Below, one piece after another: positions 193-14,558 of a stretch of 48,961 nucleotides of DNA. The notes beneath the pieces are model-generated. The model had not been told where the DNA came from. It saw only the letters and a list, made by a program, of their open reading frames with translations, and did not search any database. Position 1 is the stretch's first letter, and every line of letters starts with the position of its first letter. The DNA comes from Longimicrobium sp. (lineage in GTDB: Bacteria > Gemmatimonadota > Gemmatimonadetes > Longimicrobiales > Longimicrobiaceae): NCBI GenBank assembly GCA_036389795.1, contig DASVWD010000041.1, positions 1 to 48,961 on the forward strand, written 5' to 3'. Both the position numbers and the translations under genes were made by a program.

Positions 193-444
193 TTAGACGC
201 AGCAGGCGGGAGCGCTCCCCGTGTAGCAGACCGTCGGGTCCGAGGGGCACATGCGGTCGCAGGTGAAGCAGATCGTCCGTTCGCACATGGTGTCCCAGCT
301 GATCGCCGGCGCCGCCTTGTCCTCGCCGGGGAGGGGCTGCGGGTCGGTGTCGTGCGCGCGCACGGTGCCGGGGGAGAGCCCGGCGGGTCCGGCCACGAAG
401 GTGTCCACCTTCAGCTGCTCCAGGGTGAGCGTCAGCTTCTTCAT
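193..444 (-). CDS. Pinensin-like lanthipeptide (RiPP) precursor peptide, orphan
   Basis: This encodes an 83-residue peptide. The ATG at 444 is chosen because AAGGAGGG lies about six bases upstream; the longer upstream reading frame has no such site. The leader begins MKKLTLTLEQLKVDTFVAG and contains GTVRAH (residues 32-37), the pattern known from pinensin-family class I lanthipeptide leaders in Bacteroidetes and relatives. The C-terminal 32 residues hold seven Cys (ending ACCV) interleaved with Thr and Ser, as expected of a core that forms thioether or disulfide rings. Family membership is inferred from leader likeness. No LanB/LanC dehydratase or cyclase, protease or transporter gene lies in this window, so modification would have to be by enzymes encoded elsewhere. 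Alternatively it is an unmodified Cys-rich secreted peptide. Confidence 0.75.
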   Translation of the reverse strand: MKKLTLTLEQLKVDTFVAGPAGLSPGTVRAHDTDPQPLPGEDKAAPAISWDTMCERTICFTCDRMCPSDPTVCYTGSAPACCV

Positions 445-560
445 GCGTCCCTCCTTCGTGGTTGGGAAGAGCCCGCCGGAACGCCCGGCTGCGGCGCGCA
501 GTGCCGCGGTGACCTGGGCGCGTGCTCCCGCCGGCGGGCGGGGCGCGGCGCGGCCGAGCT

Positions 561-1202: not shown

Positions 1203-4200
1203 ATGCGCTCGCTCTCCGCCTTCCCGCTCCTCGCGCTCCTCGGCGCCGCCACGACGCTCGCCGCCCAGCGCGCACCCGAGGCCCGCCCCTCCTTCGCCGA
1301 GCCGGCCATCTCGCCGGACGGGAGCGAGATCGCCTTCGTCTCGGGGGGCGACGTCTGGGGGGTGCCGGGCGCCGGCGGCGAGGCGCGGCTGCTGGTGTCG
1401 CACCCCGCCAGCGAGTCGCGCCCGCTCTATTCGCCCGACGGGCGCCGGCTGGCGTTCGTCTCCACCCGCAGCGGCAACGGCGACGTCTACGTGCTCACCT
1501 TCGGCACGGGCGAGCTGAAGCGGCTGACGTTCGACGACGGCCTCGACCAGCTCGACGGGTGGTCGCGCGACGGGCGCTTCCTCTACTTCTCCTCCAGCAG
1601 CCGCGACATCTCGGGGATGAACGACGTCTTCCGCGTGAGCGTGGAGGGCGGCACCCCGATGCCCGTGAGCGCCGACCGCTACACCAGCGAGTTCGGCGCG
1701 GCCGAGAGCCCCGACGGGCAGACGATCGCCGTGGCCGCGCGCGGGGTGGGCGCCTCGCAGTGGTGGCGCCGCGGGCACAGCCACCTGGACGAGAGCGAGA
1801 TCTGGCTGGTCCGCGCCGGCTCGCCGCCCCGCTACGAGCAGGTGGCCCCGCGTGGCGCCCGGCAGGCGTGGCCGCTGTGGGCCCCCGACGGGCGCAGCCT
1901 CTACTACGTCTCCGACCGCGGCGGCGCGCAGAACCTGTGGGTGCACCCGCTGGGCGGGCAGCCGCGCGCGCTCACCTCGTTCCGCGAGGGGCGGGTGCTC
2001 TTCCCTTCCATCAGCCGCGACGGGCGCACCATCGTCTTCGAGCGGGACTTCCGCGTCTGGCGGCTGGACACGGCGAGCGGCGACGCCCGGGAGGTGCCGG
2101 TCTCGCTCCACGGCGCGCCCGCCGCGCCCGGGGTGGAGCACCGCACCCTCACCGGCGACTTCCAGGAGCTGGCCCTCTCGCCCGACGGGAAGAAGGTGGC
2201 GTTCGTGGCCCGCGGCGAGGTCTTCGCGGCTTCGGCGAAGGACGGCGGCGACGCGGAGCGGGTGACCACCACGGCGGGGCGCGAGTCGCAGCTGGCTTGG
2301 GCGCCCGACAGCCGCCGGATCGTCTACGCCTCGGAGCGCGACGGCGCCTCCAACCTCTACCTCTTCGACTTCGCGTCCCGCACGGAGACGCAGCTCACGC
2401 GCGGGGCGCACGCCGACGTGGCCCCGCGCTTCTCCCCCGACGGGAAGCTCGTGGCCTTCACGCGCGACGCGCGCGAGCTGCGCGTGGTCGACCCCGCCAC
2501 CCGGCAGGAGCGCCTGCTCGCCACGGGCTACTTCGACCGGCCGCCGTTCGTGGCCACCGGCGCCTTCGCCTGGTCGCCCGACAGCCGCTGGCTGGCCTAC
2601 CTCTCGGCCGACGAGCAGCTCTTCACCAACGCCTACGTGGTCCCCGCCGCGGGCGGCGAGCCGCGCCAGGTGAGCTTCCTGGCCAACGTCTTCGGCAACA
2701 CCGTCTCCTGGAGCCCCGACGGCACCTACCTCCTCCTCGACACCAGCCAGCGCACCGAGGGCGGGCAGGTGGTGCGGGTGGACCTGGTGCCGCGGCTCCC
2801 CCGCTTCCGCGAAGACCAGTTCCGCGACCTCTTCCGCGAGGAGGCGCCGCCCACCCTCACCCCGCCCGAGCAGCGCCAGGAGCCCCGCCCCGAGGCGCCG
2901 CCCGCCCGCGCGGCCGCCGCCGGGGACTCGGCCCGCGCGGCGCCGGCCGGGCGCGGCAGGAAGCCGGTGGAGATCGTGTTCGACGGGATCCGCCGCCGGC
3001 TGAGCCCGGTCCCCGTGGGGGTGGACGTCGGCGCGCAGACGATCAGCCCCGACGGCAAGTGGCTGCTGATGATCGCGTCGGCGGCCGGCCAGCAGAACCT
3101 CTACGTCTACTCGCTCGACGAGCTGGCGCGGGAGACGCCCGTCGCGCGGCAGCTCACCTCCACCGCGGGCGCCAAGCGCGACGCCTGGTTCTCGCCCGAC
3201 TCCAAGGAGGTGTTCTACCTGGACCAGGGGCGGATCAACGTGGTGCCGCTGGAGAGCCGCCAGCCGCGCGTGCTCTCCGTCTCGGCCGAGATGGACGTGG
3301 ACTTCGAGCGCGAGAAGGAGGCCGTCTTCCGCCAGGCGTGGGGCTACCTGCGCGAGAACTTCTACGACCCGCGCATGCACGGCGTGGACTGGGAGCAGGT
3401 GCGCCAGACGTACGGGCCGCAGGTGGCGGGCGCGCGCACCCCCGACGAGATGCGCCGCATCCTGGCGCTGATGGTGGGCGAGCTGAACGCCTCGCACCTG
3501 GGCGTCAGCGGGCCCGCGGGGAGCGCCCAGCAGACCACCGGGCGGCTGGGGCTGCGCTTCGACCCCGCCGAGTACGAGCGCTCGGGCCGCCTGCGCGTGG
3601 CCGAGGTGGTCCCGCTCGGCCCCGCGGCGCTGGCGGGGAACGTGGCCGCGGGCGACGAGCTGCTGGCGGTGGACGGGGTCCGCGTCGAGCGGGACACGAA
3701 CTTGGACGCGCTGCTGGAGCACCGCATCGGCCGGCGGGTGGTGCTGACGGTCGGCAGCGGGGGGAGGACGCGCGAGGTGCCGGTGCGGCCGGTGAACGCG
3801 GCCACCGAGAAGGGGCTCCTCTACCGCGACTGGGTGGAGAAGAACCGCGCCTACGTGGCCCGGGTGAGCGAGGGGCGGCTGGGCTACGTGCACATGTTCG
3901 ACATGTCGGCGGCGTCGCTGGCGCAGCTGTACGTGGACCTCGACGCCGAGAACCACGCCCGGCAGGGGGTGGTGATCGACGTGCGCAACAACAACGGCGG
4001 CTTCGTGAACGCCTACGCGCTCGACGTGTTCGCGCGGCGCCCGTACCTGGTGATGACCCCGCGCGGCCAGCCGGCGGGCCCGGCGCGGACGGTGCTGGGC
4101 CAGCGCGCGCTGGAGGCGCCCACCGTGCTGGTGACCAACCAGCACTCGCTCTCCGACGCGGAGGACTTCACGGAAGGCTACCGCGCGCTGGGGCTGGGGA

Positions 4201-4475
4201 AGGTGGTGGGCGAGCCGACGGCGGGGTGGATCATCTACACGGGCAACGTGCCGCTGGTGGACGGCACCGTGCTGCGCATCCCCGGCACCCGCATCACCAC
4301 CGCGGCGGGGGAGAACATGGAGCTCAACCCGCGCCCGGTGGACGTGCCGGTCACGCGCCCGCTCGGCGAGAGCTACACCGGCCGCGACAGCCAGCTCGAC
4401 GCCGCCGTCCGCGAGCTCCTCCGCCAGGTGGGCCCGGCGCCGCGCCGCTCCGCCTCGTCGGGCGGACCCGAGTGA
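1203..4475 (+). CDS. Tricorn-like S41 family peptidase with PD40 beta-propeller
   Basis: A 1090-residue exported peptidase. A signal peptide (residues 1 to about 22, ending LAAQ) is followed by repeated PD40/WD40-like blades carrying S-P-D-G/S motifs to about residue 520. A Pro/Ala/Arg-rich linker (about 540-590) and further blades lead to a PDZ-like region around 800-870 and a C-terminal S41 core. The core has DVRNNNGGFVN and the nucleophile region HSLSDAEDF, with Ser984-Asp985 equivalent to the Ser-Asp of tricorn. Tricorn-type enzymes degrade oligopeptides, with the propellers gating substrate; periplasmic action is inferred from the signal peptide. The ATG at 1203 is chosen because the signal peptide begins there, although no strong ribosome site precedes it. 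It ends at a terminator shared with the convergent gene. Confidence 0.9.
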   Translation: MRSLSAFPLLALLGAATTLAAQRAPEARPSFAEPAISPDGSEIAFVSGGDVWGVPGAGGEARLLVSHPASESRPLYSPDGRRLAFVSTRSGNGDVYVLTFGTGELKRLTFDDGLDQLDGWSRDGRFLYFSSSSRDISGMNDVFRVSVEGGTPMPVSADRYTSEFGAAESPDGQTIAVAARGVGASQWWRRGHSHLDESEIWLVRAGSPPRYEQVAPRGARQAWPLWAPDGRSLYYVSDRGGAQNLWVHPLGGQPRALTSFREGRVLFPSISRDGRTIVFERDFRVWRLDTASGDAREVPVSLHGAPAAPGVEHRTLTGDFQELALSPDGKKVAFVARGEVFAASAKDGGDAERVTTTAGRESQLAWAPDSRRIVYASERDGASNLYLFDFASRTETQLTRGAHADVAPRFSPDGKLVAFTRDARELRVVDPATRQERLLATGYFDRPPFVATGAFAWSPDSRWLAYLSADEQLFTNAYVVPAAGGEPRQVSFLANVFGNTVSWSPDGTYLLLDTSQRTEGGQVVRVDLVPRLPRFREDQFRDLFREEAPPTLTPPEQRQEPRPEAPPARAAAAGDSARAAPAGRGRKPVEIVFDGIRRRLSPVPVGVDVGAQTISPDGKWLLMIASAAGQQNLYVYSLDELARETPVARQLTSTAGAKRDAWFSPDSKEVFYLDQGRINVVPLESRQPRVLSVSAEMDVDFEREKEAVFRQAWGYLRENFYDPRMHGVDWEQVRQTYGPQVAGARTPDEMRRILALMVGELNASHLGVSGPAGSAQQTTGRLGLRFDPAEYERSGRLRVAEVVPLGPAALAGNVAAGDELLAVDGVRVERDTNLDALLEHRIGRRVVLTVGSGGRTREVPVRPVNAATEKGLLYRDWVEKNRAYVARVSEGRLGYVHMFDMSAASLAQLYVDLDAENHARQGVVIDVRNNNGGFVNAYALDVFARRPYLVMTPRGQPAGPARTVLGQRALEAPTVLVTNQHSLSDAEDFTEGYRALGLGKVVGEPTAGWIIYTGNVPLVDGTVLRIPGTRITTAAGENMELNPRPVDVPVTRPLGESYTGRDSQLDAAVRELLRQVGPAPRRSASSGGPE

Positions 4476-5532: not shown

Positions 5533-5658
5533 CGGCAGTCTCCGGCGTTGAACGGATCGATCGACCCTGCATCTTCCGACGGAGAACGCCGCCGCACCGG
5601 CGGGAATGACACCGTCGACGGTCGAAAAGACCGGGTCGCGCACGGAAAGCAGCCCTGC

Positions 5659-5714
5659 AGCCTCGCGCGGTTTGCGAGGCTTCCTGCCATTGTAGTTGCG
5701 GCTTCAGCCGCCCG
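5659..5714. repeat. Family D repeat, copy 1
   Basis: A GCCTCGC/GCGAGGC hairpin is followed by TTGCGGCTTCAGCCGC, itself a small dyad. Related units recur at 8.6, 13.9, 14.0, 14.6, 28.9 and 45.4 kb. The hairpin followed by a pyrimidine stretch could also terminate transcription. Confidence 0.65.
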
Positions 5715-5742
5715 GACCGAAGCAGGCGAAGCGCGCCCGACC

Positions 5743-6147
5743 TCAATGCATCCCCACGTCCCGGATCAGGTGCAGCGGGGCCAGCCGCGCGCGCTCGCCG
5801 CTGACGGCCAGCTCGAAGACGTACGTGCCTTCCGCGGGGAAGACGACGCGCTCCAGCGGCATCACCAGGCGCGTCAGCGGCGGACCCTGCATCGGCTGGC
5901 GCTCGCCCACCTCCGTCTGGCCCTTGATGCTGAGCACGGGGCTGCTGCTCGGGTCCATCAGGTCGATGGAGAGGTCGATGGTCCCCCGCTCGTGCGGCTC
6001 CCACTCGACGGCGACGGCGAGCGTCAGCCGCTCCTGCTGCGCCGGGAAGCCGGGCGCGTAGAGCTGGTGGAAGATGCCGTGCACGTCGAGCCGGCCGTCC
6101 TGCCGCTCGCGCGCGTCCTCGCAGACCAGCGCGTAGAGAACCTTCAA
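5743..6147 (-). CDS. DUF6941 family protein
   Basis: A 134-residue protein that, using a TTG start at 6147, begins MKVLYALVCEDARERQDGRL. This opening and the phrase GIFHQLYAPGFPAQQERLTL match the DUF6941 family as I know it. The TTG is preferred because the conserved N-terminus begins there and no ATG or GTG precedes it closely. The predicted fold is a small beta-sandwich (alternating beta strands; ends RLAPLHLIRDVGMH). There is no signal peptide, so it is probably cytoplasmic. The family has no established function. Family B element copy 2 lies directly upstream and a family D repeat directly downstream. Confidence 0.75.
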   Translation of the reverse strand: MKVLYALVCEDARERQDGRLDVHGIFHQLYAPGFPAQQERLTLAVAVEWEPHERGTIDLSIDLMDPSSSPVLSIKGQTEVGERQPMQGPPLTRLVMPLERVVFPAEGTYVFELAVSGERARLAPLHLIRDVGMH

Positions 6148-6195
6148 CGGGAAGCTCCGTCCAGGGTCGTTTCTCAGGTCGATGGGAATCCCATC

Positions 6196-6297
6196 GTAGG
6201 GGCGAGGCCTGCCTCGCCCGGCGGATGCCGATCCATGCGCGACAGGCGGCCTCTTGCGCCGGTCCCGCCCGTGCCGGACTCGCAGGCTCGCCCCTAC
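6196..6297. repeat. Family B element, copy 2
   Basis: A 102-base element starting GTAGGGGCGAGGCCTGCCTC and ending GGCTCGCCCCTAC, with the interior phrase CCTCTTGCGCCGGT shared with the copies at 12.6 and 40.1 kb. Confidence 0.85.
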
Positions 6298-6325
6298 GAG
6301 CCGTCGCGGGGCCGGCTCCAGATCG

Positions 6326-6967
6326 TCACGAGATGAACAGCTCGACGGACTCGCCGCGCTCCGCCGCGTGCCGGACGACGACCTCGATCTCGCGCAGCTC
6401 GCGGGCGTAGAAGTCCAGCAGTTCGCCGTGCTCCAGCGTGAGCGGCGTCCCGCGGAAGAGGCGCTCGAACGCCTCGACCGAGAGCCGCACCTGGCCCCGC
6501 GCCGAACCGGACGACGGCGCGAGCGCGGCCGCCACCTCCGGCGCCACCTCCTCCAGCACGGGTGGATCGTAGGGCACCTCGGACCGGCGCTCTTCCCACA
6601 CCTCCGGCGCCATCGGGACGGCGGACAGCCGGTCGAAGACGTCCTCGGCCATGTAGACCGTCCCACGCCACCGGAAGTAGGCCGCGTCGCTCGCCGCGAG
6701 CGTGCCGTGCGGCCCCCGCCACTCGCGCCAGACCCGGTACAGGGTGGGGAGCTCCACGGCGCGCAGCGTGGCGAGCGTGTCCTCCCACCAGCGCAGGAGC
6801 TCGCCGCCGTCGACCCTTCTCCCGTCGTCGCAGTAGCGGTACGGGTTGTCGAGGCTTCACTCCTCCAGCGCGTCCAGCCCGTCGTTCCAGAACACGAAGG
6901 TGAAGCTCGACGAGGCGTCGTAGCGCGCCTGCCCGCACGAGCACGCGAAGGAGACGGTGCGCGACAA
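6326..6967 (-). pseudogene. Hypothetical protein gene interrupted by an in-frame TGA
   Basis: Reading from a TTG at 6967 (GGAAGG six bases upstream) gives MSRTVSFACSCGQARY and then FVFWNDGLDALEE before TGA at 6859-6857 (codon 37). The same frame then continues as SLDNPYRYCDDGRRVDGGEL and on to a stop at 6326. The stretch between the TGA and the next usable start (GTG at 6757) still reads like protein. The simplest view is therefore one 213-codon gene in which a Trp TGG became TGA, or a base error. The CSCG near the start and C at YRYCDDG might bind metal. If translation begins at 6757, a 143-residue product (VELPTLYRVW to VELFIS) remains. The family is not recognised. A real stop separating two genes is possible but less likely. 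Confidence 0.55.
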
Positions 6968-6998
6968 GATCCGCCTTCCCGCTCCAGGCTCTGCAAAG

Positions 6999-7059
6999 TA
7001 CCCTCACCCGAAGTCGGGAGAGGGTGGCGACGCGGTAGCGGCGCCGGGTGAGGGCCGCC
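6999..7059. repeat. CCCTCACCC/GGGTGAGGG intergenic palindrome
   Basis: ACCCTCACCCGAAGTCGGGA and, 30 bases on, GCCGGGTGAGGG form an inverted pair, with a nested GGGAGAGGGT. A similar CCCTCTCCC/GGGAGAGGG dyad occurs at about 8700-8726. Confidence 0.5.
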
Positions 7060-7077
7060 GGCCGCCGCGCCGAAACG

Positions 7078-8364
7078 CTACAGCCGCACCCGCACGGCCT
7101 CCGCGTGCCCGTGCAGCCCCTCGGCCTCCGCCAGCCGGATCACGTCGCCCGCGTGGGCGCGCAGGCGCTCGCGCGAGTAGCCGATCAGGCTGGTGCGCTT
7201 CACGAAGTGGTACACGCCCAGCGGGCTGGCGAAGCGCGCCGTCCCGCCCGTCGGCAGCACGTGGTTGGGGCCCGCGAAGTAGTCGCCCATCGGCTCCGGC
7301 GAGTTGGGGCCCAGGAAGATCGCCCCCGCGTTGCGGATGCGCCCCGCCAGCGCCAGCGGCTCCGCCACCAGCAGCTCCAGGTGCTCCGGCGCCCGCAGGT
7401 CCGCCGCCTGCGCCGCCGCCTCGAGGTCGGGGACCACGACGATCGCCCCGTTCGCCTCCAGCGCCGCGCGCGCCACCTCGCGCCGCGGGTTCGCCCGCAG
7501 CAGGCGCTCGATCTCGGCGGGGACCGCCGCGGCCAGCGCCTCCGACGTCGTCACCAGCCAGGCGATGGCGTCGGGATCGTGCTCCGCCTGCCCGATCAGG
7601 TCCGCCGCCGCGTGCACCAGGTCCGCCGACTCGTCCGCGATCACCAGGATCTCCGACGGGCCCGCCACCATGTCGATGTCCACCCGCCCGAACACCTGGC
7701 GCTTGGCCTCGGCCACCCACTTGTTGCCGGGGCCCACGATCTTGTCCACGCGGGCGATGCTCTCGGTCCCGTGCGCCAGCGCCGCCACCGCCTGCGCCCC
7801 GCCGATGCGCAGCACCTCCGTCACCCCCGCCACGTGCGCCGCCGCCAGCACCACGTCGAGCACCACCCCGCCGGGCGCCGGCGACGCCATCGCGATCTCC
7901 TCCACGCCCGCCACCGCGGCCGGGATCGCGTTCATCAGCACCGACGACGGGTACGCCGCGCGCCCGCCGGGAACGTAGATCCCCACCCGCCGGAGCGGCG
8001 CCACCTTCTGCCCCAGCAGCGAGCCGTCGGGGAGCCAGTCCACGAAGCCGTGCTCGCGCTGCCGCTCGTGGAAGCTCCGGACGTTCTCCGCGGCGCGCTC
8101 CAGCGACTGCAGGAGCGCCGGGTCGATCGCCGCCGCGGCGCGCTCCAGCTCCTCCGTCCCGACGCGCAGCTGTGCGCCGGTGGAGACGTCCAGGTTGTCG
8201 AAGCGCCGCGTGTACTCCACCAGCGCCGCGTCCCCGCGCGCGGCCACGTCGGCCACGATGCGAGCCACCGCCTCGCGCAGCTCCGGGTCGTCGGTCGCGG
8301 CGGCCGCCGCCATCTCGCGCAGCTCGTCGAACGGCGGCGCGGCGCGCAGGGTGCGGATCTTCAT
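7078..8364 (-). CDS. hisD: Histidinol dehydrogenase
   Basis: A 428-residue enzyme, the usual length, oxidising L-histidinol to L-histidine in two NAD-dependent steps (last steps of histidine synthesis). The hallmark VDKIVGPGNKWV is at 207-218. The zinc ligand region GQAEHDP gives Gln259 and His262, APEHLE supplies catalytic Glu327-His328, and Asp361 and His420 fit the remaining zinc ligands. The ATG at 8364 begins the conserved N-terminus (MKIRTLR); the upstream frame is repeat sequence. It follows hisZ and hisG on the same strand but is separated from hisG by 469 bases of repeats, so it may have its own promoter. Confidence 0.97.
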   Translation of the reverse strand: MKIRTLRAAPPFDELREMAAAAATDDPELREAVARIVADVAARGDAALVEYTRRFDNLDVSTGAQLRVGTEELERAAAAIDPALLQSLERAAENVRSFHERQREHGFVDWLPDGSLLGQKVAPLRRVGIYVPGGRAAYPSSVLMNAIPAAVAGVEEIAMASPAPGGVVLDVVLAAAHVAGVTEVLRIGGAQAVAALAHGTESIARVDKIVGPGNKWVAEAKRQVFGRVDIDMVAGPSEILVIADESADLVHAAADLIGQAEHDPDAIAWLVTTSEALAAAVPAEIERLLRANPRREVARAALEANGAIVVVPDLEAAAQAADLRAPEHLELLVAEPLALAGRIRNAGAIFLGPNSPEPMGDYFAGPNHVLPTGGTARFASPLGVYHFVKRTSLIGYSRERLRAHAGDVIRLAEAEGLHGHAEAVRVRL

Positions 8365-8423
8365 CTCGGAAGTTCTGTCTCTCGTAACGGCGAACGGCCA
8401 ACGGCAACGGCGACCGCGGATCC

Positions 8424-8592
8424 GGGCGTGTCCCTCCGCTGCGCTCCGGGCCGGGCTGCGCGCGCCGTAGGGCACGAAACGACTGTGCCCAACGGCGCCG
8501 GGCCCCGGTCGTGCCAAACCCCCGGCACGCCCGTGTCCCGGCCCTCCGGGCGCGCATCCCTCACGCGGGGTTCGTCGCGCGAAGCGCCGGGT
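8424..8592. repeat. Family C element, copy 1
   Basis: About 170 bases starting GGGCGTGTCCCTCCGCTGCG, with a central pair of dyads, then TCCCGGCCCTCCGGGCGCGC and ATCCCTCACGCG, and ending GAAGCGCCGGG. The full-length sister copy is at 43251-43422 and a short form is at 31321-31385. It has no coding potential that I would accept. Confidence 0.75.
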
Positions 8593-8599
8593 CGCGAGC

Positions 8600-8680
8600 G
8601 GGTAAACCCGCCCGCTGGAACCACGGAAAGCCTCGCAAACCCCGCGAGGCTTCAACCGCCTCTCGCGCGGTTTTGTCGCG
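8600..8680. repeat. Family D repeat, copy 2
   Basis: The hairpin GCCTCGCAAACCCCGCGAGGC is followed by TTCAACCGCC and preceded by GGGTAAACCCGCCCGC. It lies between hisD and hisG. Confidence 0.6.
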
Positions 8681-8802
8681 CGCAGCGCCGAGGTGTTTCC
8701 CCTCTCCCGCAGTCTGGGAGAGGGGAGCGCGGCCCCTGGTCGTGAGGAACGAACGACCGGGGCCGCGCGGGGGAGAGGGCCCCGGCGGCTCCGCCGCCGG
8801 AC

Positions 8803-8837
8803 GGGCGAGGCCTGCCTCAGGCATGCCTCGCCCCTAC
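8803..8837. repeat. Short family B element, copy 3, overlapping the hisG stop
   Basis: Only the two ends remain, nearly head to head (GGGCGAGGCCTGCCTC, then GAGGCATGCCTCG-like sequence and CCCCTAC). On the minus strand its end reads GTAGGGGCG, and that TAG is the hisG stop codon. Confidence 0.75.
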
Positions 8838-9502
8838 GAGTCGCTTCCCGGCCCCTGTCCCCTGCGCTCCAGCGCCGCGGCCAGGTCCGCGATCAGCCGC
8901 TGGTGCTCCTCCAGGCGCAGCTTGTGGCTGGCGCGGTTCACGATCAGCCGCGCCGTCGAGGCGCCGATCTCCTCGAACACCACCAGGCCGTTCTCGTCCA
9001 GCGTGCGCCCCGTCTGCACCAGGTCCACGATCCAGTCCGAGAGCCCCAGGAGCGGCGCCAGCTCCACCGAGCCGGAGATGCGCACCAGCTCCACCTGCAC
9101 CCCGCGCCCCGCGAAGAAGCGCCGCGCCGACTCCACGTACTTGGTGGCCACCCGCGGCGTGCGCCCCCCCGGCAGCCCGGGGTACGGCGCGCCCCGGGGC
9201 CCCGCCACCGCCAGCCGGCACCCGCCGAAGCCCAGGTCCAGCGGCCGCAGCACGTCGGGCCCGGCCTCGTCCAGCACGTCGAGCCCCGCCACCCCCGCGT
9301 CGGCCACCCCGGCCTCCACGTAGACCGGCACGTCGCCGCTCTTCACCGGGAGGAACTCGAAGCGCCCGTCCGCCGACGGCAGGATCAGGCGCCGGGAGTC
9401 GCGCGCCGCCGGATCGAGCCCCGCGCCCATCGCCCCGAACAGCGCCAGCGCCTCCTCCATCATCCGCCCCTTGGGAAGGGCGATCCGCAGCGGCCGGCTC
9501 AT
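8834..9502 (-). CDS. hisG: ATP phosphoribosyltransferase, short form (HisG-S)
   Basis: A 222-residue catalytic subunit for the first step of histidine synthesis, joining ATP and PRPP. It starts MSRPLRIALPKGRMMEEALA, typical of HisG. The length is that of the short form, which lacks the C-terminal regulatory domain and needs HisZ; hisZ is directly upstream and overlaps by four bases (ATGA). The motif LVQTGRTLDENGL (about 161-173) is the conserved phosphoribosyl-binding loop. Feedback inhibition by histidine would act through HisZ. The TAG stop belongs to the end of a family B repeat, so the last residues (GPGSDS) may have been set by repeat insertion. Confidence 0.97.
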   Translation of the reverse strand: MSRPLRIALPKGRMMEEALALFGAMGAGLDPAARDSRRLILPSADGRFEFLPVKSGDVPVYVEAGVADAGVAGLDVLDEAGPDVLRPLDLGFGGCRLAVAGPRGAPYPGLPGGRTPRVATKYVESARRFFAGRGVQVELVRISGSVELAPLLGLSDWIVDLVQTGRTLDENGLVVFEEIGASTARLIVNRASHKLRLEEHQRLIADLAAALERRGQGPGSDS

Positions 9503-10479
9503 CCCTCCTCCGCGAGCAGGTCGGCCAGCGCGTCGGTCTCCAGCGCGAACCCCACCGCCGGCCGGTCCAGCCCGTACAGCGCCAGCAGTCCGTCGTAGCG
9601 CCCGCCGAAGCCCACCGCACGCCCGACCCCCGCCACGAACACCTCGAACTGGATCCCCGTGTAGTAGCCCAGCCCGCGGATCTCGCCCAGGTCGTACACC
9701 ACGCGCGAGCGCTCCTCGGGGGTGAGCAGCGCGTCCACCGCCGCGAGCCGCCCGATCGCCTCCTCGGCCTCGGGCGCGGACGCCAGCGAGCGCGCCCGCT
9801 GCAGCACGCCGCCCCGGCCGATCAGCTCCGGGAGCTCCACCAGCGCGCGCGCCGCCGCCGCCGGGGCGTCCGCCTGCCGCGCGATCGCCGCCAGCGCCGC
9901 GCGGTCCTTGCGGTCGATGGCCGCGCGCAGCGCCTCCGCCGCCGCGGGCTCCAGCCCCGCGAAGAGCGGACGGACGAAGCGGATGTCGCCCAGGTTGATC
10001 TGGAACTCGCTCAGGCCCAGCGCGCGCAGCAGCGACAGCACCAGCCGGAGCGCCTCCACGTCGGCCTCGGCGCCCGCGTCGCCGATCAGCTCCGCGCCCA
10101 GCTGGAAGAGCTCGCGCCGGCGCCCGCCGCCCTCCGGCTCCTGGCGGTAGACCTTCCCCGCGTAGCTCAGCCGGAGCGGCAGGGGCGCCGAGGCCAGCCG
10201 CGTGGCCACCACGCGCGCGATCGCCGAGGTGAAGTCGGCGCGCAGGGCCACCAGCCGCCCGTCGCGGTCCACGAAGCGGATGAGGCGCGCGGCCAGCTCG
10301 GGCCCGGCGCTGGTGGTGAACACCTCCTCGTACTCGAAGGTGGGGGGGATCACCTCCTGGTAGCCGTGCGCCTCGGCCAGCCCGAACCAGGCGCCCTGGA
10401 TGCGGCGCCGCCGGCGGACGTCGCCCGCCAGCAGGTCCTGCGAGCCCGGCGGCACGTGCGAGATGCGGGGGGTCGGCAT
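9499..10479 (-). CDS. hisZ: ATP phosphoribosyltransferase regulatory subunit HisZ
   Basis: A 326-residue HisRS-like protein without tRNA-charging function in this family. It activates HisG-S and carries histidine feedback control. It starts MPTPRISHVPPGSQDLL, and the class II synthetase-like core follows (ADFTSAIARVVATRL, KVYRQEPEGGG, LGYYTGIQFEVF, GFGGRYDGLL). The ATG at 10479 is preferred over an upstream start at 10515 because a promoter (TTGCCG-N17-TATCTT) ends only seven bases before it, which would leave the message leaderless. It overlaps hisG by four bases, so the two are translationally coupled. Confidence 0.95.
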   Translation of the reverse strand: MPTPRISHVPPGSQDLLAGDVRRRRRIQGAWFGLAEAHGYQEVIPPTFEYEEVFTTSAGPELAARLIRFVDRDGRLVALRADFTSAIARVVATRLASAPLPLRLSYAGKVYRQEPEGGGRRRELFQLGAELIGDAGAEADVEALRLVLSLLRALGLSEFQINLGDIRFVRPLFAGLEPAAAEALRAAIDRKDRAALAAIARQADAPAAAARALVELPELIGRGGVLQRARSLASAPEAEEAIGRLAAVDALLTPEERSRVVYDLGEIRGLGYYTGIQFEVFVAGVGRAVGFGGRYDGLLALYGLDRPAVGFALETDALADLLAEEG

Positions 10480-10486
10480 GCGCGGG

Positions 10487-10515
10487 AAGATATCGGCCCC
10501 GTCCGGGCCCGGCAA
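10487..10515 (-). promoter_or_regulatory. hisZ-hisG promoter, predicted leaderless
   Basis: On the minus strand, TTGCCG (10515-10510), a 17-base spacer and TATCTT (10492-10487). Only seven bases separate the -10 from the ATG at 10479, so transcription should begin at or next to the start codon. Confidence 0.55.
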
Positions 10516-10636
10516 CGCGGATGCGGCACAAGTGCCTATGAGTACGGAGCTTACGTATCAGGCACGCGGATTGCCTCTCATCTGTGACGAGAGTGCGCTG
10601 TACTCAACTGTTCACCCCTGACAGGGGGAGGGAATC

Positions 10637-10795
10637 GTGGACCTGATCCTCATCATCGGCATCGTGCTGCTGGTCCTGGCGCTGCTCGGCTTCACCGGCG
10701 TGTTCGCCGCGCTGAAGAGCATCGCCGTGTTCCTGCTGATCATCGCGGTCATCGTGATCGCGTGGCGGATCATCACCGGCCGCCGTCCGGTCTGA
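10637..10795 (+). CDS. Small membrane protein (DUF1328-like)
   Basis: A 52-residue hydrophobic protein translated from GTG ([20 protein letters not shown], then [14 protein letters not shown], ending IITGRRPV). There are two membrane helices around a [13 protein letters not shown] hinge, which resembles the short DUF1328/YtjA-type membrane proteins; this is a resemblance, not a firm match. GGGGGAGGGA sits just upstream of the GTG. It is divergent from hisZ and convergent with otsB, and ends at a strong hairpin. The function is unknown; small proteins of this kind are often stress-induced. Confidence 0.75.
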
Positions 10796-10820
10796 CGCCG
10801 CGAGCGCCATCGGCAGGCGC

Positions 10821-10848
10821 GCGGGGGCCCTCACCCGGGGGCCCCCGC
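10821..10848. terminator. Bidirectional terminator between the membrane peptide gene and otsB
   Basis: The arms GCGGGGGCCC (10821-10830) and GGGCCCCCGC (10839-10848) overlap the last codons of the convergent otsB. On the plus strand the hairpin is followed by TCGCGTTT. Confidence 0.6.
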
Positions 10849-11664
10849 GTCGCGTTTCGCCCAGGCCCCCCCGCCCTCCCCCGCCTCCGCCAGCGCCGCG
10901 AACAGCTCGCCCACCTCCGCCGGCTCGCGGAGGTACGAGCTCGCCGCCGAGTCCTCGGGCGGGTGCTCGGCGACCAGCACGCCCTCGCCGGAGCCGCGGT
11001 CGCGCAGCGCGCGGAAGGCGTCCTCGTCGGTGCGGTCGTCGCCCAGGTAGAGGACCGCCGCGCCGGCGGGCGGGCGCATCTGGTCCAGCAGGAAGAGCAC
11101 GGCCCTCCCCTTGTCCCAGTCCACCGGCGGGCGCACCTCCAGCACCTGCTTCCCCGTGGTCATCCGGAGCCCCAGGAGCGCGGCCGTGCCGGCCACCGCC
11201 TGCGTCAGGGCGCCCAGGCGCTCGCGCGGCGCCAGGCGGAAGTGCACGCTGAGCGTCAGCTCCTTGTCTTCCACGAACGCGCCGGGGACCTGCGCCACCA
11301 GCGGCGCCAGCCGGCGGACGGCCTCCTCGAGCCGCGGGCGCGCCGCGGCCGCCTCGGGGTGCACGCGGTCGACGCCGGGGCCGTGGATCTCCATCCCGTG
11401 GTTCCCCGCGTAGGCGATGCCGGGGATCGCCGCGCGCTCGCGCACGTCGGCCAGCCCGCGCCCGCTCACCACGGCCACCTCCACGCCCGGCATCGCCATC
11501 AGCCGCTCCAGCGCGCGGCGGGTGGCCCCGGGCATGGCGGCCAGCTCCGGGCGGTCGACGATGGGAGCCAGGGTGCCGTCGAAGTCGAGCAGCAGCACCA
11601 GCCGGCCCGTCCGCCTCCAGGCGTCGGCCCAGCGCGGCACCCGCTCCAGCGCGTGGGGCAGCAT
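10831..11664 (-). CDS. otsB: Trehalose-6-phosphate phosphatase
   Basis: A 277-residue HAD-superfamily enzyme that removes phosphate from trehalose 6-phosphate. Motif I is [12 protein letters not shown] (Asp27, Asp29), motif II lies in [15 protein letters not shown] is a family signature, and motif IV is [12 protein letters not shown]. The ATG at 11664 is chosen because residues upstream of it are encoded by the tandem GAAGTGCGAAGTGC repeat. No trehalose-phosphate synthase gene is in the window. It is divergent from hisIE across a 183-base spacer with inverted direct-repeat clusters, and a promoter is visible about 103 bases upstream. Confidence 0.93.
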
Positions 11665-11679
11665 CGGTCTTTCCAGTGC

Positions 11680-11706
11680 GAAGTGCGAGGTGCGAAGTGC
11701 GAACAC
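11680..11706. repeat. Family E short tandem repeats (GTGCGAA), otsB side
   Basis: Three imperfect copies of GTGCGAAGT/GTGCGAGGT lie just upstream of otsB. An oppositely oriented cluster stands at 11807-11840 before hisIE, giving an inverted pair. Confidence 0.7.
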
Positions 11707-11767
11707 CGAGGTCGGAAGGCGGCACGGTTGCCTCCGTCACGCGCCGCCGCTTACGTTGCGCGGCGGG

Positions 11768-11796
11768 AAGCTACGCGCGGAGCCCGGATTCCGCAC
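11768..11796 (-). promoter_or_regulatory. otsB promoter
   Basis: On the minus strand, GTGCGG (11796-11791), a 17-base spacer and TAGCTT (11773-11768). The -10 is identical to those of the sigma factor and tricorn-like genes. Confidence 0.45.
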
Positions 11797-11806
11797 GTCC
11801 CCTCTG

Positions 11807-11840
11807 AAATCGCACTTCGCACTTCGCACTTCGCACTTTT
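11807..11840. repeat. Family E short tandem repeats (ACTTCGC), hisIE side
   Basis: About four copies of GCACTTC run up to eight bases before the hisIE start codon. They are the reverse complement of the 11680-11706 cluster; relatives sit at about 31291 and 43228. Confidence 0.75.
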
Positions 11841-11847
11841 CCGACGG

Positions 11848-12531
11848 ATGTCCTGGATCGACGAAGTGAAGCTCGACGAGCGCGGCCTGGTCCCCGTCGT
11901 GGCGCAGGACGCGCGCACCGGCGAGGTGCTGATGCTGGCCTGGGCCAGCGCCGAGGCGCTGCGGCTGACCGCGGAGTCCGGGCGGGCGCACTACTGGAGC
12001 CGCTCGCGCGGCGAGCTGTGGAAGAAGGGGGAGACGAGCGGGAACGCGCAGGAGGTGGTGGAAGTGCGGCTGGACTGCGACGGCGACGCCGTGCTCTACC
12101 GCGTCCGCCAGACGGGCCCGGCCTGCCACACCGGCGAGCGGAGCTGCTTCTTCCGCGCGGCCGGGGCCGACGGGCTGTCCCGGGCCGCCGACCCGCGCCC
12201 CGTGCTCGCCCGCGTCGAGGAGATCGTGGCCGCGCGCGACGCCGGGCGGCCGGAGGGGTCGTACACCACCTACCTCTTCCAGCAGGGGGTCGACAAGATC
12301 CTGAAGAAGGTGGGCGAAGAGGCGGCGGAGACGATCATCGCCGCCAAGAACGAGGGCGTGGAGCAGCTCCGCTCCGAGTCCGCCGACCTGCTCTACCACC
12401 TGCTGGTGCTCTGGCGCGCGAAGGGGCTGGCGCTCGACGACCTCTGGGCCGAGCTGGACCGCCGCTTCGGCCAGGCCCCCCGCCCCGGCGCGGCCGACCC
12501 GGTAGAGCGGCGCTCGTCGGAGGTGGGGTAG
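11848..12531 (+). CDS. hisIE: Bifunctional phosphoribosyl-AMP cyclohydrolase / phosphoribosyl-ATP pyrophosphatase
   Basis: A 227-residue fusion for steps two and three of histidine synthesis. The HisI domain (about 1-110) has [19 protein letters not shown] and Cys77, Cys93 and Cys100 as zinc-site residues. The HisE domain (about 118-205) has [20 protein letters not shown] then [11 protein letters not shown], the metal-binding Glu-rich helix. The ATG at 11848 gives the standard [15 protein letters not shown] start. The start codon directly follows the ACTTCGC repeat cluster, and no clear ribosome site is present. A weak TTGCCT-N17-TTACGT promoter lies about 90 bases upstream. It is separated from hisZGD by otsB. 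Confidence 0.95.
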
Positions 12532-12577
12532 ACGGTCCGCCGCGAGCGGCCGGGCGGGAATCAACGCGATGTGTTTC

Positions 12578-12679
12578 GTAGGGGCGAGCATGCGAGTCCG
12601 AGCACAGGCGGCATCGGCGCAAGAGGCCGTCTTCCGCGCACGGGCTGGCTTCCTCGATCGAGGCATGCCTCGCCCCTAC
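12578..12679. repeat. Family B element, copy 4
   Basis: A 102-base element in the opposite orientation to copies 2 and 5: it starts GTAGGGGCGAGCATGCGAGT and ends GAGGCATGCCTCGCCCCTAC. Confidence 0.85.
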
Positions 12680-12688
12680 GAATCATGA

Positions 12689-12738
12689 AGCCTCGCCGGC
12701 CATCCCGCACTCCGCGGGTTCGGCCGGCGAGGCTTTCG
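12689..12738. terminator. Terminator downstream of hisIE
   Basis: AGCCTCGCCGGCC pairs with GGCCGGCGAGGCT and is followed by TTCGG. It lies between the convergent hisIE and the 12761-13249 gene. Confidence 0.6.
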
Positions 12739-12760
12739 GCTGCCGCCGCTCCGGGATCTT

Positions 12761-13249
12761 TCAGCGCGCGGCGGCGGCGGCTCCCCGGGCGAAGGCGGCG
12801 TCGAGGATCATCTCCTCCTCGCCGGGGTCGCGCCAGCCGTCGTTGAGGGGCTCGCCCCACTCCACCCCCCGGCCGGTCACCGTGAAGGGCTGCATCCAGA
12901 AGAGCCGCGTCCCGTACTTGCAGCGCACCTCGGCGATCAGCACCGGCCCGTCGTCCATCTCGGCCTCCAGGGCCAGCATGAGGCAGTCGGGCTTCTTGGT
13001 CTCGGCGTAGCGCGCGATGATGCCGGAGAGCACCTCGGGCGAGAGGCCCCCGAAGCGGTCGGGGACCGGGATGTTCAGCGTGCGGAACTCGGGGGTGGCG
13101 TGGCCGGGGCGCTCGTGGACGCTGCGAAGGCGCGGCGGGGTGTCCGACCCATCCATCTTGGCCCTGCCGACGTCGCTGCGGACCTCCTCCAGAAGGCGCG
13201 TGGCGAAGCTCAGCACGCGCTCCATCTGCATGATCTTGCTTCGCGGCAC
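12761..13249 (-). CDS. Hypothetical protein
   Basis: A 162-residue soluble protein. A GTG at 13249 preceded by CAGGAGAGC is chosen as the start (MPRSKIMQMERVLSFATRLL); Met codons at positions 7 and 9 are alternatives. The N-terminal 35 residues look helical and basic. The middle and C-terminal parts alternate beta strands (CLMLALEAEMDDGPVLIAEV, KYGTRLFWMQPFTVTGRG). There is no signal peptide, membrane segment or recognised motif. It stands alone, with the HNH nuclease gene 263 bases upstream on the same strand. The interval 13250-13512 shows nothing else. Confidence 0.7.
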   Translation of the reverse strand: MPRSKIMQMERVLSFATRLLEEVRSDVGRAKMDGSDTPPRLRSVHERPGHATPEFRTLNIPVPDRFGGLSPEVLSGIIARYAETKKPDCLMLALEAEMDDGPVLIAEVRCKYGTRLFWMQPFTVTGRGVEWGEPLNDGWRDPGEEEMILDAAFARGAAAAAR

Positions 13250-13512
13250 TGCGCTCTCCTGCTGCTGCACTTCAGGTCGGAATCGACGCGAGCCCCGCGC
13301 GCTACCACGCGCCGCCCACCCGCGGAAGCCCACATGCAAACCGGACGCCATGAGCCGCCGCTCAGCCGCCCATGCATCGATCGTTCCCATCCGTTTCCCG
13401 TGCTGTAAGTCATTGTTCAACAGAGACCTGCGCGATTTGCAACGAAAGGGATGCCCGCCCCGGCCGCCGATCGGGAGACGTGAACTGATGTTGGGCACGA
13501 TGGGCGGCGGGG

Positions 13513-13869
13513 TCAGCTCCGGGCGGCCTCCTGCACGGCGCGGCGCAGTCGGGGCCAGACGGCGGTGGCGTAGCGGAGGAAGTTGGCGCGCTCGTCGGGG
13601 TTCTCGGCGAGCCAGGCCCAGGCGGGGAGGTTGCCCTTCTTCGTGTTGCAGGCCTTGCAGGCGGTGACCAGGTTGCCGTCGGAGTTGTCGCCGCCGCGCA
13701 TGCGAGGCTGCACGTGGTCCAGCGACAGCAGTTCCACCGGGTAGAGCCCCGCGCAGTACACGCAGCGGAACCCGTCCCGCGCGAAGATGCGGTCCCGCAC
13801 CGAAAGGAAGTCGTCGGACAAGGGCTGTGCTCGGTGGATGGTCGGCGTCCGGCTCGTCGGGCGCCGCAT
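13513..13869 (-). CDS. HNH endonuclease
   Basis: A 118-residue nuclease of the HNH/McrA type. CVYCAG (around residue 38) and CKACNTKKGN form the two Cys pairs that bind zinc. LLSLDHVQPRMRGG holds the catalytic His, with the Asn in SDGNLVTACKACN. It cuts DNA, but its natural role (restriction, mobile DNA or housekeeping) cannot be told from sequence. The ATG at 13869 is the first in-frame start beyond repeat sequence; a start nearer QPLSDDFLSVRDRIF is possible. No methyltransferase or phage gene is adjacent. Confidence 0.85.
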   Translation of the reverse strand: MRRPTSRTPTIHRAQPLSDDFLSVRDRIFARDGFRCVYCAGLYPVELLSLDHVQPRMRGGDNSDGNLVTACKACNTKKGNLPAWAWLAENPDERANFLRYATAVWPRLRRAVQEAARS

Positions 13870-13902
13870 GCCGCCGATGCCGGCCGGGGTTCCTCGCCGA
13901 AG

Positions 13903-13960
13903 GCGGCTGAAGCCGCGGCAACAACGGCAGAAAGCCTCGCAAACCCCGCGAGGCTTCAAT
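13903..13960. repeat. Family D repeat, copy 3
   Basis: GGCGGCTGAAGCCGCGGCAA is followed by GCCTCGCAAACCCCGCGAGGC, the inverse orientation of copy 1. Confidence 0.65.
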
Positions 13961-13978
13961 TCAACCGCGAACATCCCC

Positions 13979-14073
13979 GACACCACACCGGGACCGGTCG
14001 CAGCGCGCGGATCTCCTCGCGGGAGTCCGCGCAGGCGGACTTCGTGTGGTCGTTGCAGCGAATTCATTCGCCC
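13979..14073. repeat. Family D-related repeat, copy 4 (AGTCCGCGCAGGCGGACT type)
   Basis: The hairpin AGTCCGCGCAGGCGGACTT is followed by CGTGTGGTCGTTGCAGCGAA and TTCATTCGCCCG. It is nearly identical to 14581-14680; the two flank the META lipoprotein gene in the same direction. Confidence 0.75.
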
Positions 14074-14078
14074 GGCGC

Positions 14079-14558
14079 CTACCTGCCGGACTGCGCCACG
14101 AACCGCGCGACCGGCCCGGCTTCGCCGGCGAGGACGAGCGTGTCGGCGGTGATGCGCCAGGTGCGCGTGTCGCCGAGCGCCTGGAGGAACGCGGCCTCCT
14201 GGCGGTTCATCTCCGGGTCCACGCACGCGCGGCGGGTCGAGGCGAGCGGGCCGAGGCGCAGCGACTGCCCGCTCAGCTCGTAGGGGCCGAAGAAGCGATT
14301 GCACCCGGCGTTGCCGCCCGCCTGCTTCTGCGCCGGGTCGAGCCGCAGGTCCGGCCCGGCGGCGTCCGCGGAGGCGCGCACCGGTCGGCCGCCGAGCTCG
14401 AGCAGTTTCCAATCGGTGTTCTCCAGCGGCGCGCCCGGCACCGGCCCCGCGGCGGCGCCGCCCGACGCCTCCGGCTGCCCCCCGGGAACGCCGGGCGAGG
14501 TGCAGCCGGCGGCGAACGCGAGCACGAGAGTGAAAAACCGAGTGGCCGGCCTGTGCAT
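14079..14558 (-). CDS. META domain lipoprotein (HslJ-like)
   Basis: A 159-residue lipoprotein. The signal is MHRPATRFFTLVLAFAAGC with lipid-modified Cys19. A Gly/Pro-rich linker precedes one META domain: NTDWKLLELGGRPV, then GGNAGCNRFFGPYEL (the family's G-C-N-x-F motif), LGPLASTRRACVDPEMN and a terminal beta strand. The META family includes heat-inducible HslJ, and its role is poorly known, perhaps in envelope stress. AAGGAGAGGG lies at good distance before the ATG. Similar D-type repeats bound the gene on both sides, which could have helped it move as a cassette. Confidence 0.9.
   Translation of the reverse strand: MHRPATRFFTLVLAFAAGCTSPGVPGGQPEASGGAAAGPVPGAPLENTDWKLLELGGRPVRASADAAGPDLRLDPAQKQAGGNAGCNRFFGPYELSGQSLRLGPLASTRRACVDPEMNRQEAAFLQALGDTRTWRITADTLVLAGEAGPVARFVAQSGR

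Follow-up and report, generated by a model that had tools for sequence, protein, structure and literature searches.

A putative lanthipeptide precursor gene in Longimicrobium sp., very probably one of about 150 dispersed precursors served in trans by a single class I enzyme set

The window analyzed here, 48,961 nucleotides in length, is the entire contig C41 of a 7.52-Mb Longimicrobium sp. genome (G000; 285 contigs, 98% complete). Close to one end it carries a short open reading frame (ORF) on the minus strand, with its ATG at 444-442 and its stop codon at 195-193. Translation confirmed exactly the position that a first-pass annotation had assigned to this ORF, and the strong ribosome site and seven-Cys core with interspersed Thr and Ser residues described there were also found. 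The gene and its parts are as follows.

193 to 444, minus strand: gene for a LanA-like lanthipeptide precursor, 83 amino acids plus stop codon, recognized by its translation, its leader profile score (E=1.6e-13) and a 70% identical orthologue on contig C36 of genome G008
349 to 444, minus strand: leader, residues 1-32, MKKLTLTLEQLKVDTFVAGPAGLSPGTVRAHD, fitting positions 1-32 of the family profile A1
301 to 348, minus strand: variable linker, residues 33-48, unconserved relative to the G008 orthologue (dN 0.54, dS 0.21, 15 codons)
196 to 300, minus strand: core, residues 49-83, SWDTMCERTICFTCDRMCPSDPTVCYTGSAPACCV, with 7 Cys and 8 Ser/Thr residues, all 15 of which are kept in the G008 orthologue
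449 to 456, minus strand: ribosome binding site AAGGAGGG, read from the sequence, strong and located 4 bases ahead of the ATG

The full peptide, MKKLTLTLEQLKVDTFVAGPAGLSPGTVRAHDTDPQPLPGEDKAAPAISWDTMCERTICFTCDRMCPSDPTVCYTGSAPACCV, holds its seven Cys and eight Ser/Thr residues within the last 35 positions, and its leader reads MKKLTLTLEQLKVDTF...GTVRAHD. Conservation places the probable start of the core at residue 49, so that it would comprise Cys at positions 54, 59, 62, 66, 73, 81, and 82 and Ser or Thr at S49, T52, T57, T61, S68, T71, T75, and S77. Comparison of the peptide with Pfam and PHROGs gave no credible match. The neighboring gene (1203-4475, plus strand) is in divergent orientation, and the precursor gene therefore stands alone, with only 192 bp of contig left downstream of it. 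The first-pass annotation had noted that no maturation enzymes lie within the 48 kb downstream; no synthetase is encoded in the window, as the sole LanB and all four LanC-domain proteins of the genome are found on other contigs, but the 48 kb in question is upstream of the gene. Two sets of repeats flank it. An inverted repeat of 28 nt (CACAGAG/CTCTGTG type, 10-37 and 63-90), downstream of the gene and at the very end of the contig, may have caused the assembly to break there, and nested inverted repeats of the GTAGGGGCGAGGCCTGCCTCGCCC type (599-619 and 896-916; 696-726 and 881-911), located between the precursor and the next gene, resemble a dispersed intergenic repeat.

A tblastn-type search of the genome recovered dozens of siblings of the window peptide. 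Leader profile A1, built on 31 leaders of which the window leader is one, gave at least 150 matches in this genome, down to weak ones, and scored the window ORF at the E value given above. Precursors were counted by collecting the DNA around the profile matches, rerunning the profile in six frames, and removing four doubtful candidates, which left 152 credible precursors; these occupy 76 loci and are spread over 65 contigs. Most of these loci (53 of 76) consist of a single gene, while the two largest contain 13 genes each. All 152 precursors start with ATG, 144 are preceded by a purine-rich ribosome site similar to that of the window gene, and their median length is 74 amino acids; a few peptides with weak leader scores could be decayed or false. 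When 298 genomes of the phylum were scanned with the profile (E≤1e-5), 8 were positive and 290 were without a match. Because of its profile score and its roughly 150 siblings, set against these 290 genomes, the window ORF is far from a chance occurrence.

The leader consensus of the family is M-x-K-L-x-L-x-L-D-x-L-x-V-E-S-F-x-T, followed by ~8-10 variable residues and then G-T-V. Mean identity among the precursors is 55% in the leaders (23% when shuffled) and 35% in the cores (32% when shuffled), so the cores have little in common beyond their composition. Between paralogues on different contigs, nucleotide similarity typically starts 5-10 bases before the ATG, at the ribosome binding site, and ends near the end of the leader. 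Dispersed paralogues on C48, C53, C126, C259, and C261 have the same initial core segment (GTVFGEQCTCYT.CTCPGCPTC) and then diverge, which is possibly a trace of how new cores originate.

The orthologue of the window gene (G008:C36:2711-2968) has different flanking genes, and only the ORF and ~33 bp upstream of it align. Synteny was thus rejected as support for the window copy, and orthology rests on the peptide itself. By a simple count over few sites, dN/dS relative to this orthologue is ~0.44 in the core and above 1 in the linker. These figures bear on whether the window copy is a silent remnant within a true family, an unlikely reading, though one compatible with the explanation preferred below. 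The gene is alone beside a contig end, and k-mer enrichment upstream of the 76 loci relative to other genes revealed no convincing common promoter motif, both of which would suit a remnant. Against this, the ORF and its ribosome site are intact, and the orthologue holds every Cys and Ser/Thr residue while the linker drifts and the core shows the low ratio just given, albeit from few sites.

Conservation of Ser/Thr among homologues, which the first-pass annotation had proposed to examine, extends beyond the window gene. In seven orthologue pairs between G000 and G008, 40 of 42 core Cys residues (95%) and 46 of 51 core Ser/Thr residues (90%) are conserved, compared with 149 of 229 other residues (65%). 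Cores of the G000 family contain 15.2% Cys, 12.1% Thr, and 6.5% Ser, and the Ser/Thr count equals or exceeds the Cys count in 93% of them. So high a Cys content (15% of core residues), along with CxxxC repeats in some members that would suit disulfides or metals, could suggest that the peptides are unmodified, Cys-rich, and disulfide-bonded or metal-binding, with the common start acting only as an export or binding tag. This is improbable: Ser/Thr conservation between orthologues nearly equals that of Cys, an NCBIfam lanthipeptide leader model matches 60 of 148 members, and the distribution and clustering of the LanB genes described below also argue against it.

The arrangement of these residues is likewise nonrandom. 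A distinct upstream Ser/Thr is available for 95% of core Cys residues, vs 79% in shuffled cores. Ser/Thr are strongly enriched at one and five residues before Cys and depleted at three residues before it. Repeats of the type xxTC account for much of this enrichment; the preference for five residues before Cys has a z of 6.4 after their exclusion, and it recurs in G008. The window core contains five pairs at this spacing (S49-C54, T57-C62, T61-C66, S68-C73, and S77-C82), a pattern that suggests overlapping rings of the corresponding size as the predicted product.

Only one LanB-type protein is encoded in G000, and the search for LanB/LanC and for a peptidase and transporter, which the first-pass annotation had recommended alongside the search for further leaders, led to two contigs with the following genes.

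C225 (L037): glutamylation protein, 1077 aa (PF04738, E 3.5e-46)
C225 (L037): separate elimination protein, 350 aa (PF14028, E 5.5e-41)
C225 (L037): LanC, 681 aa (LANC_like, E 4.2e-49)
C206, 12550-17035: ABC exporter, HlyD-type protein, and S8 protease, adjoining precursors
C206, 17301-21889: 13 precursors, beside the exporter group

The LanC of C225 has WCHG and LCHG motifs, corresponding to the Cys, Cys, His type of zinc binding, when aligned with LicM2, and it is closer to this LanM cyclase (E 1.5e-11) than to NisC (E 0.003). The closest PDB sequence relatives of the glutamylation and elimination proteins are 6ec7 and 5ehk, respectively, presumably TbtB and MibB; sequence similarity to them is low. 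TbtB and MibB are dehydratases of known structure from thiopeptide and lanthipeptide biosynthesis, each of which serves a local precursor. No precursor was found on C225, and none in G000 is contiguous with LanB because C225 stops 335 bp past LanC. No C39 domain was found in the ABC exporter of C206. Exporters and proteases were sought in the fetched stretches of the genome, where this is the one candidate set. The terminal gene of C206 encodes MnmG and the first gene of C225 encodes ParA; since MnmG and ParA are neighbors in G015, C206 and C225 probably adjoin, in which case some 40 kb would separate LanB from the exporter group.

Related leaders are present in related genomes, and their distribution follows that of LanB. 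Ten of 61 related genomes carry the leader family (G000, G001, G002, G006, G007, G008, G009, G014, G015, and G020), and LanB scores above its cut-off in exactly these ten; both are missing from three genomes of the same genus. The chance of such an exact match is 1 in C(61,10), or ~1e-11, if the genomes are independent, a figure that their relatedness weakens. The scan of 298 genomes added two distant ones, G192 and G194, each with one leader copy, a LanB gene within ~3.5 kb of it, and LanC alongside. The first-pass annotation had named conservation of the peptide in genomes devoid of lanthipeptide enzymes as evidence against its proposal; LanB was present in all 12 leader-bearing genomes that were examined. 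Moreover, leader genes adjoin LanB/LanC in seven genomes. G015 has a contiguous set of LanB, elimination protein, LanC, two precursors, ABC, HlyD, and S8 genes, the same functions are again together in G009 and G002, and LanB, elimination protein, LanC, and precursors are found together in G008 and G014, with G192 and G194 as described. The perfect co-occurrence of leader and LanB among the 61 genomes and the presence of LanB, LanC, and precursors in one cluster in relatives both oppose the view that the peptides go unmodified.

The number of precursors varies widely among these genomes, from 1 in G006, G192, and G194 to 47 in G015, 67 in G014, 78 in G009, at least 131 in G002, and at least 150 in G008. 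Other LanB-family genes are present in several leader-rich relatives, G008, G009, and G014 among them, and the case for one enzyme serving all precursors is therefore cleanest only in G000 and G002. G008 contains a second, divergent LanB set (L156, contig C98, 4365-9812) that is preceded by an S8 protease and accompanied by a precursor of CSxC-type repeats at contig positions 18824-19096. In G014, a further type of LanB, whose PF14028-like partner is a separate protein, occurs beside VAGG-leader peptides on C273 (L152, 9310-13214) and C393 (L153, 1034-6286); the peptides beside the LanB of C393 have almost pure Ser/Cys cores (e.g., SSSGTCCSCSSCSS), and these systems possibly represent a different class of ribosomally synthesized, modified peptide (RiPP).

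Besides the class I set, G000 seems to encode lanthipeptide systems of classes II and V. Two LanM synthetases of class II (L038, G000:C28:5001-25000; 5576-8863 and 11266-14334) lie amid short precursors with VAGG (double-glycine) leaders and constitute a system separate from that of the pinensin-type leaders. A class V-like set (L039, G000:C285:100001-118000; 9895-13593) consists of a LanC of 439 aa, a HopA1-family protein of 343 aa, and a 375-aa protein without a Pfam match that may be a phosphotransferase. As both enzyme sets are present in the genome, either might be thought to modify the family in trans, a proposal that is very hard to credit on distribution. Four leader-bearing genomes lack LanM, namely G006, G007, G020, and G008 (which has 150 leaders or more), and the leaderless G003 has it; HopA1 was found among the 61 genomes only in G000, G014, and the leaderless G005. 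These distributions relative to the leader family, together with the different, VAGG leaders of the peptides around the LanM genes, led to the rejection of LanM and of the class V set as the general modifier. Modification by radical SAM enzymes, which would make the peptides ranthipeptide or sactipeptide precursors, is similarly remote. TIGR04114, a model of Cys-xxx repeat radical SAM targets, gave a weak match among the 148 siblings, but the match is limited to one member, a reading of the genes (as opposed to a family search) recognized no radical SAM enzyme in the clusters of relatives, and such chemistry does not need conserved Ser/Thr.

In class I lanthipeptide biosynthesis, the leader binds LanB, and Ser/Thr residues are then glutamylated with Glu-tRNA as the donor; elimination of the glutamate leaves dehydrated residues to which LanC adds Cys, and the product is exported and its leader cut. 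A candidate part for each of these steps is present once in G000 (for the exporter and protease, within the fetched stretches), whereas precursors are present ~150 times; the parts include LanB glutamylation and elimination proteins, a separate LanC, and a leader followed by a Ser/Thr/Cys core, and relatives provide the genome-context link. As judged from sequence comparisons, the window gene very probably encodes a lanthipeptide precursor of class I and belongs to a family of ~150 that are dispersed in the genome and modified in trans by one enzyme set. The first-pass annotation had offered processing by a distant synthetase that serves many scattered precursors as one option, and the 152 precursors with one leader type, the single LanB with its LanC, the single exporter and S8 set, and the co-occurrence of leader and LanB give it good genomic support. 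Under this explanation, the conserved leader would be recognized by the single LanB-type dehydratase, the 1077-aa glutamylation protein of C225, which would glutamylate core Ser/Thr residues; the 350-aa elimination protein would then remove the glutamate, and the 681-aa LanC would join Cys to the dehydrated residues, forming thioether rings. The product would be exported by the single ABC/HlyD exporter of C206, and its leader would be cut by the single S8 (subtilisin-like) protease encoded there. Each of these steps, from substrate recognition through dehydration and ring closure to the export route and cleavage, is inferred from sequence. Served in trans in this manner, the single- and tandem-precursor loci would together amount to a natural combinatorial library.

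Class I lanthipeptide enzymes are usually bound to one or few local precursors. If the proposal is true, a single class I set acting on ~150 hypervariable precursors nearly doubles the precursor count of the prochlorosins, and natural combinatorial lanthipeptide synthesis arose separately in another enzyme class, with another leader, and in another phylum; the arrangement is apparently of independent origin. Genomes ranging from one precursor (G192, G194, and G006) to at least 150 (G000 and G008) offer a graded series for studying the expansion, and promiscuous LanB/LanC enzymes, if this is what they are, would have practical use in cyclic peptide libraries. Cluster mining beside the synthetase alone, which is noted to miss most prochlorosin precursors (PMC7268733), would likewise overlook most precursor genes of the G000 family. 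The sole related item found in the literature, an antiSMASH list for Longimicrobium terrae, gives three lanthipeptide-typed regions and leaves scattered precursors unremarked (PMC7291104), and no report of such a scattered class I arrangement was found in the open-access literature.

By leader, split LanB, and LanC affinity, the pinensins are the closest known group. In pinensin biosynthesis the glutamylation and elimination proteins are split, and the LanCs of this group are related to LanM domains (PMC7268733). The G000 system resembles these class I systems of Chitinophaga in its split LanB, its leader family (NF038180), and a LanC nearer to LicM2 than to NisC. The pinensin-like label of the first-pass annotation is fair for the leader family, in which NCBIfam model NF038180 matches 60 of 148 siblings at E≤0.01; the window peptide itself has no match, and the 24-bit cut-off of the model was exceeded by 1 of 10 siblings scanned singly. 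By these scores the family is borderline to NF038180 and the window copy lies outside it. Pinensin genes form a local cluster in Bacteroidetes, whereas here ~150 Cys-rich precursors are dispersed in a member of the Gemmatimonadota.

In genomic organization, the closer parallel is with the prochlorosins and synechococsins of Prochlorococcus and Synechococcus (ProcA/ProcM and SyncA/SyncM), in which a promiscuous synthetase acts on scattered or tandem precursors with a conserved leader and a hypervariable core (PMC10783134; PMC7268733). G000 similarly combines many dispersed precursors with one synthetase, a conserved leader, and a variable core. Prochlorosins, however, depend on a class II LanM and have Nif11-type leaders that are cut after Gly-Gly, while the G000 family has a class I split LanB, a separate LanC of the Cys-Cys-His type, leaders without a Gly-Gly site, and an S8 protease, and LanM does not track its leaders. 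Because enzyme class, leader, and protease differ, the family is not a member of the prochlorosins. The zinc ligands of prochlorosin-type cyclases are tabulated as CCC (PMC11251773), and the counts reported for prochlorosins and synechococsins do not exceed 83 and 79 precursors per genome (PMC10783134); the 152 precursors of G000 are about twice this maximum of 83. It is reasonably likely that no natural lanthipeptide library known from a single genome is larger than that of this family (two genomes have at least 150 precursors each and a third has at least 131), that the library is produced by a promiscuous class I split LanB and LanC without the prochlorosin CCC zinc site, and that the unusual five-residue Ser/Thr-to-Cys spacing of its cores leads to many overlapping, larger rings.
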